Source: a virus. From it: a DNA stretch of 28,417 nucleotides. The position numbers were made by a program, and so were the translations under genes. The notes under the pieces were generated by a model. The model searched no databases and was not told the origin of the DNA. It worked only from the letters and a program-made list of their open reading frames with translations. The stretch spans positions 1 to 28,417 of the IMG/VR virus record IMGVR_UViG_3300042473_000668. One strand, given 5' to 3'. This document shows positions 10,146 to 25,923 of this stretch, piece by piece (the first letter of the stretch is position 1; the number at the start of each line of letters is the position of its first letter).

Positions 10146-10757
10146 ATGAAAAGTTTGCGTAAGTATTTGGCAGAGAGCGTAAGAACTTATCACTATAAAA
10201 TTAAAATTGCCGGTCAACCACCTAAAAATTGGTTAGATATGTTTTGCTATAATTTATCAAAATTTGACCCAGTTAAAATTAGTGATCCCAAAACTACTCC
10301 TATTCAAAAAGATCCATATGGATTCCCAGACTTGGAAAATCAAGCAATTACAATGATTGATGTTGAATTTAGATATCCAGCCATTGAACCAATGATTAAA
10401 CAAGTTGCTCGTTTATTAAATTATGATGAGAATTTAGTTAGAATGGTTCAGGCTGATTATGATGATAGTATTAATCATGAAGCAGAACAATATGCAAATC
10501 AAGCTTCACATAGTCCAGTTCTAACTCATGAAGAATTAGAAGACAATGGTAAAGAAGCTAATAAGGCATATGGTGAACAATATATGTCTAGCGTATTCAA
10601 AGATTATAAGGCTGATAAAATTAAAATGGCTGGTCCACAAACCAAGCCGGCTGTAGACTCACGCAAATTCCCAGGAAATGAAGAGAGTCCAATGACCAAA
10701 GTACAAAGACAGCCTAAACCACAAACTGGTGCCAGTCAAGGCACAAAATTCAAATAA
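10146..10757 (+). CDS. putative capsid-targeted internal/core protein, 203 aa
   Basis: The first eleven residues, MKSLRKYLAES, resemble the capsid-targeting sequence of T4 internal protein III (M-K-x3-x-[FY]-[IL]-A-E), which sends proteins into the prohead core and is removed by the prohead protease after [IL]-x-E. The remainder has an aromatic N-terminal domain (Y-H-Y-K-I-K-I-A-G...W-L-D-M-F-C-Y), a F-R-Y-P-A-I-E-P-M-I-K helix region, and a hydrophilic, disordered-looking C-terminus rich in K, Q, P and S from about residue 115. No membrane segment or enzymatic motif is seen. AGAGGAA supports the start. The next gene has a similar N-terminus. Packaging inside the head is inference from the N-terminal match and context; the biochemical role is unknown. 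Confidence 0.7.
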   Translation: MKSLRKYLAESVRTYHYKIKIAGQPPKNWLDMFCYNLSKFDPVKISDPKTTPIQKDPYGFPDLENQAITMIDVEFRYPAIEPMIKQVARLLNYDENLVRMVQADYDDSINHEAEQYANQASHSPVLTHEELEDNGKEANKAYGEQYMSSVFKDYKADKIKMAGPQTKPAVDSRKFPGNEESPMTKVQRQPKPQTGASQGTKFK

Positions 10758-10778: not shown

Positions 10779-13700
10779 ATGGATATCAAATCACTATGGC
10801 AAAAATTAGATCAGATCGCTGAATCTAATCGTAGAACTAAGATCGACGAAATGGATTACGGCAACGACGATGAAAAATCTCCATCTAGCGGTCATGGATA
10901 CGGTAAACATAAACCAGCTGCAGAAGTAACAGTTGGCAAAGACAAAGTTCTTGACAAAAAGAGTATGACAAAGAACGCATCTGATGCATTAGATCATGCT
11001 TTTAAAGAAAAATCAAAAAAACAAGATGTGACGGAGAATCGTCAAGATGACAGCCCGGTAGTAAGTGCTATTCTTCGTAGAATTATGCACAACCCCAGTC
11101 ATAATGTACTAGAGATATATGGCCCACGTGCAGTTATGGATGCAGTCAACGATGTGGCTGAGTATGTAGGTGATGTTGATGAGATTGGTACTAGTGACGT
11201 TAGTGGATGGGTACAACAAGTAGAACGTGCGTTGGCTGATAACCGATCAATAAGAGAAGGAGAAATGTCAACTCGTAAGGGTGACAAGGGTGAAACTATT
11301 CGTAGACATACTGCCAAAGCTGGTGGTTATGGTCGTAAGATTGATAAAGATGATGAAAGTGGTGATGCATTTCACAGTTCGGACATTGATGATACTGATG
11401 ATACCTCAGCATCAAAATCACCAGTTAAACGTGGTCGTGGTCGTCCAATGAAGGGCGGAGATAGTGAGACTGGAATCACAAAGAAATATGATACTGATAC
11501 ACTAGCTAGTTGGATCATTGGTAACAAACCAAAAAATATCGGTAAGATTGGTAAAGTATCTCATGTAAACAGATTGAAAGAATACATGGAAATGGTTGAG
11601 CGTAAAACAATCGTTGAAAGCATCGTCGCCGAAGGTGGTGGTAATCAATTAGAACAAATTGTTGATGATATCATTGAAGGTCGTTTAGACATTTATGACA
11701 TTATTTCGAAAAAATATATTCCTACTAATAAAGTAGAAGATTTTGTTCAAAAAGCATTAATTAAATCATATGACGAAATTGCTAGTGATCGTGGATTACA
11801 TGCAGATGATGATCACGAAGATATTATTGGAATAATGTACAATGATATTCATGATATCATGGGCAAAGCCTATTCAAAAGGCATCGATGAGCAAGCCCAA
11901 CCAATGCCAGCACAAGCCGCGGCACAACAAGCAGGACAACAAGCAGGACAACAAGCAGGACAACAAGCACAACAGCAACAACTTCCAGTTCTTGCTGGAG
12001 GTAAACCTGTTGGTTCAGCACCAACCGCTCAAGCTGTTCAAGCCGCCACTCCAATGGTAAATGATATTCTTAATAAAAAACAAGCTCTTGGAAAAATGGG
12101 AGTTTCAGTGACAGCACTAGAAGAATCATTGGCTGATACAATGAATAGATTCTCTTCAATACTAAATGAATCAAAAGATCGTAGTACAGTAGGTCGTCGT
12201 ACTTTGTCAGAAAGTAAAACACCAAAGTTAGTTTTAGAAGGTACATTAGAAGAGATCATTGCCGTTCATCCACATGAGCACAAAATGTGTCAAGAAGGAT
12301 GGGGAATGGATGAAAGTTTATATGAAGCATTGTGTGATCATTATCATAAAGAGGGTCGTATTCCTCGTAAAGTATGGCATGGTTCATCAGAAGATTTACG
12401 TAAATGTGTAGAAGAATGTTACCTGCAAGATACACAGTCACTAATAGGCGAATCTACTGCGGATGTACCTGATCAGGAAGATTTTAGTACTTATAGTAAA
12501 AAAGAGATGGATGCACTGTTTACCATACCATCATCGATACAAGTTTATGATAGTCCTCCTGCGGCCTCTTCAACTACTACGACACCGACTACTACGACTC
12601 CAACAACGGGTTCGACTACACCAACGGGTTCCACTACACCAACTACACCAACTACGACATCTACTACTTCATCCACGATGGAAGAAGATGACGATAATCA
12701 TGAAGTTGCCGCCGGTTTAGGTGGAGCCGCACTTGGCGGTGGGTTGGGATATGCAGCCGGATCAGGAGCACTTGATGGTATTTTAGATGGCGCCCTGGGA
12801 TTGATCGGTTTAGAAGAAGATGACATTGAAGAAGGATTTACTGGTGGTGCATTAGGCGGTATTGCTGGTGCGGCACTAACAAAATCTCCAAGTGGGGCAA
12901 TTGCTGGTGCAAAACTTGGAAGCGATATTCAAGATAGATTTTCAAAAAAATCACCATTTGAAACTGAAGAAAAAGATATTAGAAGACATGCAATGTCTAG
13001 ACTTATTGATGAATTAGATGAATCTACTAATTACTGGAAACTAAAAAACGATATGAGTGAATCTAAAAAGCCAAGTGCTGGCATGACAAAAGGTGAAAAA
13101 TCTTCTCTTGTAAAAAAAGCAAAATCAGGAAAAGATATTGGTAAACCTGGTAAAGGATTTGACAAATTAGCCAAGAAAGCCGGTGAGAAATATGGTAGTG
13201 CTGAAAAAGGTAAGAAAGTAGCAGCAGCCGCTATGTGGAAAAATGCAGCTCCAACTAATGAAGCACAACTAGATGAGTTGTCAAAAGATACACTAGGTTC
13301 GTATGTCAAGAAAGCATCAAAAGATGTTGAAGGCAAATCTGGTGAAAAACAACAATACAAAGATATGTTTGCTGGTAATTATCCAGTTCGTGGAGCAAAG
13401 AAAGAAGTCGCAAAGAAACAAGAAAAAATCAACAAGCGTCAAGTCGGTATTGGTAAAGCAGTTGATAAGATGACAAACGAAGCAACAGACGATCACTACG
13501 ATCAAGCCGCAATTGCCAAAGGTAAACGTGGTCGTGATGCTCGTGACAATCCTTCAAAGGCAGTAGCAGCAGCTAAACGTAGTCCATCCGCTCAAGACGC
13601 TCGTGCCAAACTTGACAAAGTAAGTCAGTATGGAAACAAAGTCAAAGAATCAGCAAAACCAGATTTCTTAGACTTAGACAAAGACGGCAACAAGAAAGAG

Positions 13701-15701
13701 TCAATGAAAAAAGCATCTTCAGACAAGAAAAAAGTCAAAGAAAATGTTAATGTAGCTCAGATGCAGGCAGGTACATTTAGACCAGGCGATAAAGCAATTG
13801 CTAGAGATGGATCACAAGTTACAATCGCTAAAGTAGAAGGTAATGGAGATGTGTGGATCAAGTCATGGCAAGATGACAAACCACAACGTGTGGATGCTCG
13901 TACTCTAAAGTCAGTTGGATCTTCAGGTAAAGCACTTGCTGAGTCATATGACTTTTCTGAGTGGGATAATCAATTGTCATCATTATTGAAACCAACTCCA
14001 AAACAAGCAGTTTCTGAATCAACTAAAATTAAGAAACAAATGATCAATGAAAGTTCTAACGAATTATCTACTATGTTACAATTTGCTGGTCTTAAAAATG
14101 TTCAACAAGTAATGGAAGAGTTTAACGCTAGCATATATGCGGACGACAGTGAATCAACGTCTTCAACTGATGGTGCAGATAATCCTCCTCAATTAGCTAT
14201 GCCTACAGGTATGGGCATGAGCCAACAGAAAGATGATGATGATGAATCAACAGTGGTAGAACCAATGATGAGTGATGAAGTTATTGGTGGTTTGGCAAAA
14301 GGTGATAAAGAATCAACTCAATCTGATAATGATCATTTGAGTTTCTTCAAGAAAATGCTCAGTCATGGTCAAAGTGAAGTTAAAACTGAAAAACCAAAAT
14401 CTGAATCAGGTGAACAAAGTGGAATCCCAGCATCTACTAGTCAAAGTCCAGTAAGTGGAGAAACAAGTGATAAGCCAGTTACGGAAGCATCACCAGTTAC
14501 TTCAACTATAAACAAATTTAAGCCTAAGATAACTCCAGGTGCTATTCCCCCACTAGATACAACTACAACTACAAGTACTATTCCAACATCAAGTACTATT
14601 CCAACATCAAGTACTGGACGAACCGATCAAGAACAACGCGCCATTGAAAAAAATGCCGCCGAAAAATTTGATGCATCAAATCCAAATTGGAGAAACAATT
14701 TTTCATCATCTACTCCCAGTACGTCATCTTCAACACAACAAGCCGCTGACATGGCAGATTTCAAAGCTCTAACTGGTGTTGGTGAACCAGGAATGACTCC
14801 GGCTGATACAATGCCAGTTGGATCAAAGTATGATGCAGCTGACATGGCAGATTTCAAAGCTTTAACTGGTGTTGGTGAACCAGGAATGACTCCGGCTGAT
14901 ACAATGAAGAAATTATCTACTCATATGTCGGGTTCTGATAATCCAGAAATTAATGGTCCAAATGGTACTGGTGGTCCATTAGAAGAAGAAGACATGGAAG
15001 AAGGTAATGAGTTTACTGCGGCTTTAGCCAGAGCCAGAGCGAACGGAGTTCAAAAAGGAGAAACCATGAAAGTTGGTGGTAAAACTTATCCAGTTAAAGA
15101 AGACTCAGTTGTTGCTGGTAATGGTGACAATGAAGAAGAACAAAGTGAAGTTAGTAGTGATGCAACTCGTGATGCTGGATTAGCACAAGGAGATAGTAAC
15201 TTCTTCTCTTCAGAAAATAGTTCAACTATGGCAGAAAATGAACATCAAGGTATGTCCAGCGACAGTATTATTGGTGACATTTTAGCTAAATTAACTCAAC
15301 TAGTTGGATCAGAACAAGGTCAACCAGCAATGAGTGCCGAACCACCAGTAATGGTAGATGTACAATATGCAGATGATGAACAATCACAAGATTATGCAGA
15401 TGAAGAATCACAAGATGAAGAACATTGTGATCAGTGTCAATCATGTGGCGAAACAATGTATGAAAATCATCAATGTATGGAAAGTTTAAACGAGTGGGCC
15501 AATAGTCCTACTGGTGAAAGTGCTGATGAACAGTTTCAAACTGATATGGATTTCATGACTAAAGTAATTAGTGGTGGATTGAATAATCAGAAACAAGATC
15601 AGACAACTTTACCAAGTACACGAGTAGTTACTAGAGACGAAAGTAAAGATGTTTCTAATACTATGGGTGCAATGTTACGTAAATTGTCGGGAATTAACTA
15701 A
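10779..15701 (+). CDS. giant modular protein, candidate prohead-core polyprotein, 1640 aa
   Basis: I do not recognise the full-length protein. The N-terminus ends in I-A-E-S at residues 13-16, like a capsid-targeting propeptide. Visible modules are: an AT-hook-like K-R-G-R-G-R-P at about 217-223; GQQA repeats at about 381-397; a His/Cys-rich block at about 495-550; a Thr/Pro linker at about 598-632; two glycine-zipper segments at about 643-671 and 687-714; a Lys/Gly-rich block at about 767-823; D-L-D-K-D-G-N at about 964; an SH3-like G-D-K-A-I-A-R-D-G patch at about 1000-1045; a 69-base duplication at about 1323-1376; and a Cys cluster at about 1549-1567. At least nine [LI]-x-E-S sites occur. 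CAAGGAAA precedes the ATG. A strong terminator follows. An internal-head or ejected protein is my inference; a scaffold or tail role is possible. Confidence 0.75.
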   Translation: MDIKSLWQKLDQIAESNRRTKIDEMDYGNDDEKSPSSGHGYGKHKPAAEVTVGKDKVLDKKSMTKNASDALDHAFKEKSKKQDVTENRQDDSPVVSAILRRIMHNPSHNVLEIYGPRAVMDAVNDVAEYVGDVDEIGTSDVSGWVQQVERALADNRSIREGEMSTRKGDKGETIRRHTAKAGGYGRKIDKDDESGDAFHSSDIDDTDDTSASKSPVKRGRGRPMKGGDSETGITKKYDTDTLASWIIGNKPKNIGKIGKVSHVNRLKEYMEMVERKTIVESIVAEGGGNQLEQIVDDIIEGRLDIYDIISKKYIPTNKVEDFVQKALIKSYDEIASDRGLHADDDHEDIIGIMYNDIHDIMGKAYSKGIDEQAQPMPAQAAAQQAGQQAGQQAGQQAQQQQLPVLAGGKPVGSAPTAQAVQAATPMVNDILNKKQALGKMGVSVTALEESLADTMNRFSSILNESKDRSTVGRRTLSESKTPKLVLEGTLEEIIAVHPHEHKMCQEGWGMDESLYEALCDHYHKEGRIPRKVWHGSSEDLRKCVEECYLQDTQSLIGESTADVPDQEDFSTYSKKEMDALFTIPSSIQVYDSPPAASSTTTTPTTTTPTTGSTTPTGSTTPTTPTTTSTTSSTMEEDDDNHEVAAGLGGAALGGGLGYAAGSGALDGILDGALGLIGLEEDDIEEGFTGGALGGIAGAALTKSPSGAIAGAKLGSDIQDRFSKKSPFETEEKDIRRHAMSRLIDELDESTNYWKLKNDMSESKKPSAGMTKGEKSSLVKKAKSGKDIGKPGKGFDKLAKKAGEKYGSAEKGKKVAAAAMWKNAAPTNEAQLDELSKDTLGSYVKKASKDVEGKSGEKQQYKDMFAGNYPVRGAKKEVAKKQEKINKRQVGIGKAVDKMTNEATDDHYDQAAIAKGKRGRDARDNPSKAVAAAKRSPSAQDARAKLDKVSQYGNKVKESAKPDFLDLDKDGNKKESMKKASSDKKKVKENVNVAQMQAGTFRPGDKAIARDGSQVTIAKVEGNGDVWIKSWQDDKPQRVDARTLKSVGSSGKALAESYDFSEWDNQLSSLLKPTPKQAVSESTKIKKQMINESSNELSTMLQFAGLKNVQQVMEEFNASIYADDSESTSSTDGADNPPQLAMPTGMGMSQQKDDDDESTVVEPMMSDEVIGGLAKGDKESTQSDNDHLSFFKKMLSHGQSEVKTEKPKSESGEQSGIPASTSQSPVSGETSDKPVTEASPVTSTINKFKPKITPGAIPPLDTTTTTSTIPTSSTIPTSSTGRTDQEQRAIEKNAAEKFDASNPNWRNNFSSSTPSTSSSTQQAADMADFKALTGVGEPGMTPADTMPVGSKYDAADMADFKALTGVGEPGMTPADTMKKLSTHMSGSDNPEINGPNGTGGPLEEEDMEEGNEFTAALARARANGVQKGETMKVGGKTYPVKEDSVVAGNGDNEEEQSEVSSDATRDAGLAQGDSNFFSSENSSTMAENEHQGMSSDSIIGDILAKLTQLVGSEQGQPAMSAEPPVMVDVQYADDEQSQDYADEESQDEEHCDQCQSCGETMYENHQCMESLNEWANSPTGESADEQFQTDMDFMTKVISGGLNNQKQDQTTLPSTRVVTRDESKDVSNTMGAMLRKLSGIN
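11923..11970 (+). repeat. 12-base tandem repeat encoding GQQA units
   Basis: The unit GCAGGACAACAA occurs three times in a row at 11931-11966, flanked by partial copies (CACAACAA before, CACAACAGCAACAA after). It encodes Q-Q-A-G repeats in a glutamine-rich linker of the giant protein. Copy-number change by slippage would stay in frame. Confidence 0.85.
12571..12675 (+). repeat. low-complexity Thr/Pro linker of ACT/CCA triplets
   Basis: A run of ACT, ACG, ACA and CCA codons with two near-copies of ACGGGTTC-ACTACACCA encodes a Thr/Pro/Ser linker of about 35 residues between the His/Cys-rich block and the glycine-zipper segments. A second, shorter Thr/Ser linker with a duplicated T-S-S-T-I-P unit lies at about 14563-14620. 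Confidence 0.75.
14745..14906 (+). repeat. 69-base direct duplication, 93-base period
   Basis: Bases 14745-14813 and 14838-14906 differ at one position only (CTCTA versus CTTTA) and are separated by 24 unrelated bases. Each encodes A-D-M-A-D-F-K-A-L-T-G-V-G-E-P-G-M-T-P-A and a few following residues. The single silent change points to a recent in-frame duplication, or to conversion between copies. Confidence 0.92.
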
Positions 15702-24641: not shown

Positions 24642-25225
24642 TGAATAAAAATGTAATCTTAACCGACATTGATGGTGTAGTTCTGGACTGGGAATATGCA
24701 TTTTCTATTTGGATGCAAACACACGGACATTCAAAAGTAGAAGGTGGTCAATATAAGTATAGTATAGGAAAGAGATACGGGATTGATGATGAGAACGCTA
24801 AGCAATTGATCAAGTACTTTAATGAAAGTGCTGCTATAGGATTTTTGCCCCCTCTTCGTGACGCTATGTATTACGTAAAGAAACTGCATGAGAAACACGG
24901 ATATATATTTCATGCTATTACCTCACTAAGTAAAGATCAAAATGCGTGCAAACTTAGAGAAATGAATCTTAGGAAATTATTTGGGGAAACGGCATTTGAA
25001 AAATATATTTTTCTGGATACCGGCGCTGACAAAGATGATGCATTGGAAGAGTATAGAAATAGCGAATTGTTCTTCATTGAGGACAAAATAATCAATGCCG
25101 AAACTGGACGTCTGATGGGATTGAATTCTCTATTAATGATTCATGGGCATAATATGAACTATGATGGTTTAGTTCCAAAAGTAAAAAATTGGAAAGAAAT
25201 TTATGAGATTATAATTGGCAATTAA
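24641..25225 (+). CDS. HAD-like phosphatase/nucleotidase-type protein, 194 aa
   Basis: The N-terminal I-L-T-D9-I-D11-G-V-V-L-D-W is HAD motif I, with the nucleophile D9 and the acid/base D11. A short cap-like helical region follows, then I-T-S-L (motif II, Ser/Thr) near residue 93, and F-F-I-E-D-K (motif IV-like) near 147. Proteins of this type in T4-like phages are thought to act on nucleotides or on DNA ends (5'-nucleotidase or 3'-phosphatase); the substrate cannot be read here. It is the last gene of the operon. Its final 17 bases overlap, convergently, the end of the homing endonuclease gene. The length and motif order suggest an intact enzyme. Confidence 0.78.
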   Translation: MNKNVILTDIDGVVLDWEYAFSIWMQTHGHSKVEGGQYKYSIGKRYGIDDENAKQLIKYFNESAAIGFLPPLRDAMYYVKKLHEKHGYIFHAITSLSKDQNACKLREMNLRKLFGETAFEKYIFLDTGADKDDALEEYRNSELFFIEDKIINAETGRLMGLNSLLMIHGHNMNYDGLVPKVKNWKEIYEIIIGN

Positions 25226-25859
25226 TCCAAATAGTAAAATTTCCCATATCCATTTCTTTCTTGTCAATTAATCTACACACAGTTTTTATTTTTGGTTTTC
25301 CGTTAGATTTATTAGGTCCTAATTTCTTTCCTTTAGATGGATGCCCTCCAAATTTTTCTTTATGTATTTGAGCATTTTTTCTATTGGAAATTGTCATATT
25401 AATAACTGCTTGTTTTGATTTTGAAACTCCTTTTGATGAAAGACTTATTTGTTGTTTTTGTTCATCAGTGAGAGATTTATATTTTCTATTTTTGTTTATG
25501 ATAGAAATATCTTTGGCAAAATCTCTTCTTATCTTATCAAATAGTTTTGCTGTTATTTTTAGACGAGTTTGATTGTCACTTTTGCGAGACATTTTATTTA
25601 AAGCAAATCTCATTTTTCTTGAAATGTCTACGTCATCAAACATTTTTGTTAATAAATGATGACATACAAAATGCTCTTTTGCCGTTAAATATACCAAATT
25701 AGATGATTCATCTGATCCATCAATGCATTTTGGAATAATATGATGTTTTTCAACATATCCTAGTGATTCTTTAGCTGATTTTTTAGTTGAGTGATTTCTT
25801 AATTTGGATTGTTCAATGATATTATAATACCATTTAGTATATTTGTTGTCTAAATACAT
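25209..25859 (-). CDS. HNH homing endonuclease, 216 aa
   Basis: The start (K-Y-T-K-W-Y-Y-N-I-I-E) is typical of phage HNH homing endonucleases. The HNH site is E37-K-H39-H40-I-I-P-K...N54-L-V-Y-L-T-A-K-E62-H63-F-V-C-H67-H68-L-L. A Lys-rich C-terminus with repeated S-K-G-V-S-K-S-K and H-P-S-K-G-K-K segments looks like NUMOD3-type DNA-binding motifs. An in-frame ATG 60 bases upstream exists, but I choose 25859 because AAGGAG lies 9 bases before it and the family N-terminus begins there. It lies downstream of phoH on the same strand, and its 3' end overlaps the phosphatase gene. A hairpin at 25887-25917 lies in its leader. It is likely a mobile element inserted after phoH. Confidence 0.87.
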   Translation of the reverse strand: MYLDNKYTKWYYNIIEQSKLRNHSTKKSAKESLGYVEKHHIIPKCIDGSDESSNLVYLTAKEHFVCHHLLTKMFDDVDISRKMRFALNKMSRKSDNQTRLKITAKLFDKIRRDFAKDISIINKNRKYKSLTDEQKQQISLSSKGVSKSKQAVINMTISNRKNAQIHKEKFGGHPSKGKKLGPNKSNGKPKIKTVCRLIDKKEMDMGNFTIWINCQL

Positions 25860-25886
25860 TTGCTGATGCTCCTTGAAAGCGTTAGA

Positions 25887-25917
25887 GCGAGTGGATGTTA
25901 GTAGCATCGCGACTCGC
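25887..25917 (-). promoter_or_regulatory. hairpin in the leader of the homing endonuclease
   Basis: GCGAGT pairs with ACTCGC, and an inner GATG pairs with CATC, giving a stem of about 10 bp with an asymmetric bulge. On the minus strand it lies upstream of the AAGGAG at 25869-25874. In the rightward direction it is followed by a T-rich stretch (ATCTTTTATTT) and could end read-through from the replication operon. Which use, if any, is real is open. Confidence 0.5.
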
Positions 25918-25923
25918 ATCTTT

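Follow-up and report, generated by a model that had tools for sequence, protein, structure and literature searches.

In bacteriophage T4, the prohead protease gp21 cleaves after the motif [LI]xE (PMC9026906), and the scaffold protein gp22 along with the core proteins gp67 and gp68 are known to be cut by this enzyme at multiple sites (PMC5694885, PMC9026906). The internal proteins IPII and IPIII start with MKTYQEFIAE/A (here and below, the slash marks a cut position, known or candidate), which is the capsid targeting sequence (CTS) (PMC9026906). In the giant phages phiKZ, 201phi2-1 and SPN3US, head proteins with long propeptides are processed at several motif sites by a divergent gp21 homolog (PMC10052503, PMC9026906); in RaK2, processing of gp23 was suspected by the authors of the original study, and the protease was detected in the virions (PMC3622015). 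The polyvalent proteins (P1 DarB, N4 vRNAP-like) are large and consist of multiple modules, and have been likened to polyproteins by the authors who analyzed them (PMC5512222).

The protein P0001 (1640 amino acids; positions 10779..15701, on the plus strand, as are all features below unless indicated otherwise) is encoded by a single open frame in the window, i.e. the complete 28,417-base IMG/VR fragment analyzed here, and, on strong sequence evidence, this giant protein appears suited for incorporation into the nascent head and for cleavage at numerous positions by the head protease that the phage itself encodes. P0001 resembles T4 gp22 in its strong excess of the motif [LIVM]xE[SAG] but, unlike gp22, gp67 and gp68, is far larger and modular, contains a conserved folded domain and occupies another gene slot; moreover, unlike gp22, a P0001 homolog coexists with a true scaffold in the IMG/VR record G011. 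T4 IPI-III and Alt share with P0001 a short N-terminal propeptide that ends in [LI]xE/[AS], but whereas the IPs lose this propeptide and Alt is cut at both ends, P0001 has about 20 candidate internal sites. Almost all sites detected in phiKZ, 201phi2-1 and SPN3US (where the motif is AxE) remove N-terminal propeptides, in contrast to P0001, in which sites are found throughout the protein, around the modules. Polyvalent proteins carry enzymatic domains, often with an embedded peptidase, whereas neither enzymatic domains nor an embedded peptidase were found in P0001 by comparison with Pfam and PHROGs. Finally, the structural proteins RaK2 ORF047-051 and 121Q gp557-561 occupy the P0001 slot after gp4, and several of them have a CTS-like [LI]xE[AS] start, but these are separate short genes as opposed to one long mosaic ORF, and the likeness is one of slot and N-terminal start rather than of demonstrated homology to gp558-561.

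The window comes from a jumbo phage that is T4-related and RaK2/121Q-like, and its gene content and order match those of RaK2, 121Q, XaC1 and Vibrio phage 2.275.O, all of them jumbo phages related to T4. The genes for the Ad2 neck protein, dNMP kinase, sheath, tail tubes and gp4 head closure protein are followed by ORFs of 176, 203 and 1640 amino acids; gp21, the scaffold and gp23 are absent from this fragment. The relatives from IMG/VR also encode the P0001 homolog as one ORF, and in the cultured relatives 121Q and RaK2, the slot holds several short proteins, most of these annotated as structural. P0001 produced no significant match in Pfam or PHROGs, and a sequence search of annotated phage records yielded no match except for one short module.

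The original prediction listed nine [LI]xES sites in P0001, with one or two expected by chance. All nine are indeed present, starting at residues 13, 278, 447, 462, 476, 556, 746, 1053 and 1089, namely, IAE/S (aa 13-16; 10815..10826), IVE/S (aa 278-281; 11610..11621), LEE/S (aa 447-450; 12117..12128), LNE/S (aa 462-465; 12162..12173), LSE/S (aa 476-479; 12204..12215), IGE/S (aa 556-559; 12444..12455), LDE/S (aa 746-749; 13014..13025), LAE/S (aa 1053-1056; 13935..13946) and INE/S (aa 1089-1092; 14043..14054), and the near-matches noticed around residues 157 and 516 correspond to IREG (aa 158-161) and LYEA (aa 514-517). By chance, 1.16 sites are expected from the composition, 1.2 from the local composition and 2.2 when dipeptides are preserved, and none of the 5000, 1500 and 1500 respective shuffles reached nine, which rules out composition, local-composition and dipeptide artefacts as the cause of the excess. 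Control motifs are not enriched in P0001 (none for [LI]xDS, [LI]xQS, [LI]ES and [LI]...ES, and two for [LI]xKS).

The list of sites was nevertheless too narrow. With [LI] relaxed to [LIVM] and S to [SAG] after inspection of the data, which gives the form of the motif found in substrates of the T4 type, P0001 contains 21 sites compared with 6.0 expected (P = 1.4e-6), and the widened motif subsequently held in independent proteins of RaK2, T4, G011 and 2.275.O. The sites gained or confirmed include IRE/G upstream of module M1 (aa 158-161; 11250..11261) and VLE/G upstream of module M2 (aa 485-488; 12231..12242). The excess vanishes when the hydrophobic position is shifted, E is replaced with D or Q, or the P1' residue is changed, whereas K at P1 shows a weak, non-significant excess. 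The remaining 25 ORFs examined in the window contain 16 [LIVM]xE[SAG] sites, with 15.4 expected. Between two of the sites, the short segment of aa 1056-1091 (13944..14051) displays the recurring pattern E/S..W(D/E).QL..LL.

The same excess is found in known and predicted prohead-core proteins. Among the 156 ORFs in 150 kb of RaK2, the protein encoded between gp21 and gp23, that is, in the scaffold position, is by far at the top (14 sites versus 2.0 expected), whereas with the top 12 ORFs removed, the count is 112 versus 116. The record G011, which includes a 1122-aa P0001 homolog (L042), has the order gp20, two small ORFs, gp21, scaffold, gp23; its gp21 matches Pfam S77 (PF03420) with 97.8 bits, so a cognate S77 protease is present in the lineage, its scaffold contains 14 sites versus 2.3 expected, and the N-terminus of its gp23 carries LLE/S, LLE/G and LAE/S. 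The scaffold of Vibrio phage 2.275.O (14 versus 2.0) and T4 gp22, which is annotated as degraded by gp21 (10 versus 2.5), show the same trend; T4 gp21 is moderately enriched (5 versus 1.0), gp23 marginally, and the counts for the T4 sheath, tube, portal and Hoc differ little from expectation. A general proteome bias is ruled out by the controls in the window, RaK2 and T4, and on these counts, motif excess is a mark of prohead-core substrates. P0001 is not itself the gp22-type scaffold, as the position between gp21 and gp23 is taken by a different ORF in G011, RaK2 and Vibrio phage 2.275.O. A direct search for gp23 and gp21 in the 169 kb record with another homolog (L005) detected no gp23 and only an S77-like ORF of 129-131 amino acids. 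A free-standing ORF of 129-131 amino acids in the G001 record (L024:8292-8681), with the central S77 protease region only and without a scaffold or gp23 nearby, is possibly a diverged protease paralog.

Nearly every substantial homolog of P0001 that was retrieved shows motif excess, mostly at positions that cannot be aligned. The near-complete homologs contain 12-19 sites compared with 3.5-6 expected, and 12 more distant ones, some of these partial and some mutually related, jointly contain 160 sites versus 47.6 expected, with P values that ignore shared descent. In the pooled homologs, alternative spacings and D, K or Q at P1 are flat or nearly so, and S, G and A are preferred at P1'. Because the flanks of 181 sites represent 114 distinct contexts, the pooled count reflects more than shared descent, and many sites either originated independently or cannot be aligned; an explanation of the excess by shared descent alone is made less plausible, although not eliminated. 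Modules are kept across relatives while linkers diverge. In close pairs, the site glutamates show only a slight, non-significant surplus of conservation over other glutamates. In four loci (L047, L005, L010 and L008), the P0001 homolog is the only ORF with a strong excess, and in L060, one further ORF is strongly enriched. This ORF (L060:18184-19686; 500 amino acids, 7 sites versus 2.2 expected, C-terminus RLLKLSGL) is a second candidate core substrate.

Both ends of P0001 are reminiscent of core proteins. Like the T4 internal proteins, it has a short N-terminal propeptide that ends at a cleavage motif, MDIKSLWQKLDQIAE/S (aa 1-15; 10779..10823). This CTS-like sequence is recognizable in most homologs and persists with variation down to a 263-aa protein of T4-like contigs (MNMKDMIQRMTDIEANKQQLNE/A), which occupies the same slot as P0001, has the EWANSP module in common with it and contains a single site; L008, L009 and L012 carry LEE or LDE as the N-terminal motif, with no small residue at P1'. 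The 203-aa upstream neighbor (10146..10757) has a CTS-like N-terminus of its own, MKSLRKYLAE/S, and an N-terminal LxES is present in every relative in which this neighbor was found, with the counterpart in L055 starting with MTFEKFLTE/A. At the other end, the tail LRKLSGIN (15675..15698) is similar to the C-termini of the scaffolds of this clade and, elsewhere in the scanned sets, such a tail was found only in the scaffolds of RaK2, G011 and 2.275.O and in a 663-aa ORF of L055. The pattern [LIVMF]xxL[AS]G[LIV] (L065:35281-36393, L070:5594-6700, L071:9072-10169, window:10779-15701, L060:18184-19686 and L055:12022-14013) is confined to scaffolds and putative core substrates, with no other ORF in the sets scanned, and this tail may serve for docking to the core or the shell; this result is exploratory because the pattern was loosened after a stricter version had given only chance matches.

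Three blocks of P0001 are retained in divergent homologs (aa 173-281, 481-558 and 1553-1640). Module M1 (aa 161-280; 11259..11618) is flanked by sites at E160 and E280, with the conserved block ending at the IVE/S site, and includes the AT-hook-like KRGRGRP (aa 217-223; 11427..11447); KRGRGRP or GRGRP is found in many homologs that possess M1, and the equivalent in L042 exceeds the Pfam AT_hook cut-off. Module M2 (aa 488-558; 12240..12452), a conserved five-helix HPHEHKM domain, is flanked by sites at E487 and E558. The predicted model of M2 consists of five helices with a pLDDT of 86; the search of PDB folds with this model produced nothing below an E-value of 2.8, and the PDB sequence search returned only short hexokinase stretches that were judged to be chance matches. 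Module M3 (aa 1572-1640, EWANSP...ISGGLN; 15492..15698), for which the AlphaFold model is of low confidence (pLDDT 56), is preceded by MYE at 1562, with N at P1', and by a CxxC zinc ribbon-like stretch, CDQCQSCGETMYENHQC (aa 1550-1566; 15426..15476). Neither M2 nor M3 matched any annotated phage.

The order of the modules changes from M1-M2-M3 to M2-M1-M3 in L038 and L040, and to M2-M1 in L015 and L016, and in most cases, the reordered modules remain flanked by sites; in L008, L009, L011 and L012, some module edges have no site nearby. Altogether, 19 of the 30 ends of homology blocks lie within 10 amino acids of a site, compared with 11.0 for random glutamates (P = 0.0014). The sites thus tend to be located at module boundaries. 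Two of the 21 sites, MDES (aa 510-513) and LYEA (aa 514-517), lie inside the predicted helical M2 fold; these two may be protected and perhaps remain uncut.

The original prediction construed P0001 as a core polyprotein, which is supported in part. At the sequence level, there is good support for P0001 as a multi-site substrate of a gp21-type prohead protease, from the spacing of the motif, the P1' preference, the excess in scaffolds and gp22, the CTS-like N-terminus and the sites at module boundaries; packaging and location in the head, cleavage, the choice of the sites used, and the retention and function of the pieces are inferred. It appears fairly probable that P0001 is a prohead-core protein from which the gp21-type protease produces several pieces. 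Under this scenario, P0001 would belong to the prohead core of its RaK2/121Q-like, T4-related jumbo phage, and would be brought into the core before shell closure by the CTS-like propeptide and, perhaps, the scaffold-like C-terminal tail. The gp21-type (S77) protease would then act on the C-terminal side of [LIVM]xE, usually with S, G or A as the next residue, cleaving both the N-terminal propeptide and numerous internal sites in the linkers that separate the modules. This would liberate, as separate pieces, the M1 peptide with its AT-hook, the helical M2 domain and M3 at the C-terminus; some of these, at the least, probably remain with the DNA in the mature head, and the linker peptides would be cleared.

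The main rival holds that P0001 is an accessory scaffold or core protein that is degraded as a whole and cleared or lost like T4 gp22, with no piece functional in the virion. The density of sites and the C-terminal tail of P0001 do resemble a scaffold, and the cleavage of T4 gp22, gp67 and gp68 yields short fragments (PMC5694885), but G011 encodes a separate full scaffold between gp21 and gp23 in addition to a P0001 homolog, the confidently modeled domain, the AT-hook and the CxxC stretch are kept across relatives while the linkers diverge, and the same slot in 121Q and RaK2 encodes proteins annotated as structural. Complete clearance seems rather unlikely, and these features favor the persistence of at least some pieces. 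Quite improbable is the alternative whereby [LIVM]xE[SAG] serves for docking to some other protein of the core or shell and most internal sites are rarely or never cut: two conserved sites are located within the helical M2 domain, and the case for cleavage comes from sequence, but the motif fits the P3-P1-P1' pattern of gp21 and the gp23 propeptide sites of this clade, and marks T4 gp22, which is known to be cleaved. The least probable reading, which assigns P0001 to the neck, tail or baseplate, out of reach of the protease, draws on its position in the window between head-closure/tail-tube and baseplate-like genes but is hard to reconcile with the T4-like contig L055, where the 263-aa protein with the same slot and the EWANSP module precedes gp17, and with the lack of motif excess in the tail proteins of the window and T4.

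A broader possibility, put forward tentatively and with slightly less than even confidence, is that of a phage head polyprotein, i.e. one long core-targeted precursor from which independently evolving modules, namely a DNA-binding piece with the AT-hook, a helical domain and a piece from the C-terminus, are released in the prohead by the maturation protease, and in which modules are shuffled together with the flanking cut sites. A literature search that covered few subscription papers found no account of a phage head protein with cut motifs at the borders of shuffled modules. Should the polyprotein reading be correct, a single shuffled precursor would supply jumbo T4-related phages with a whole set of internal peptides, the motif-excess test, which singled out T4 gp22 and the scaffolds from three jumbo phages, would serve as a simple predictor of prohead-core substrates that requires no more than sequences, and the contents of jumbo phage heads, mostly unassigned, would become directly testable.

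Several other features of P0001 and the window were observed. The direct repeat AADMADFKALTGVGEPGMTPADTM occurs twice in the C-terminal third of P0001 (window 14600-14900). The module KKPSAGMTKGEKSSLVKKAKSGKDIG (aa 761-811; window 13059-13211) shows 67% identity to a 230-aa protein encoded by an uncultured 735-kb phage (L021:7506-8198) and appears to be a traveling module. The tail sheath reaches 1671 amino acids in one relative (L015:1038-6053) compared with 1181 in the window, and a homing endonuclease (phrog_655; window 25209-25919, minus strand) is lodged between the plus-strand and minus-strand phage genes.
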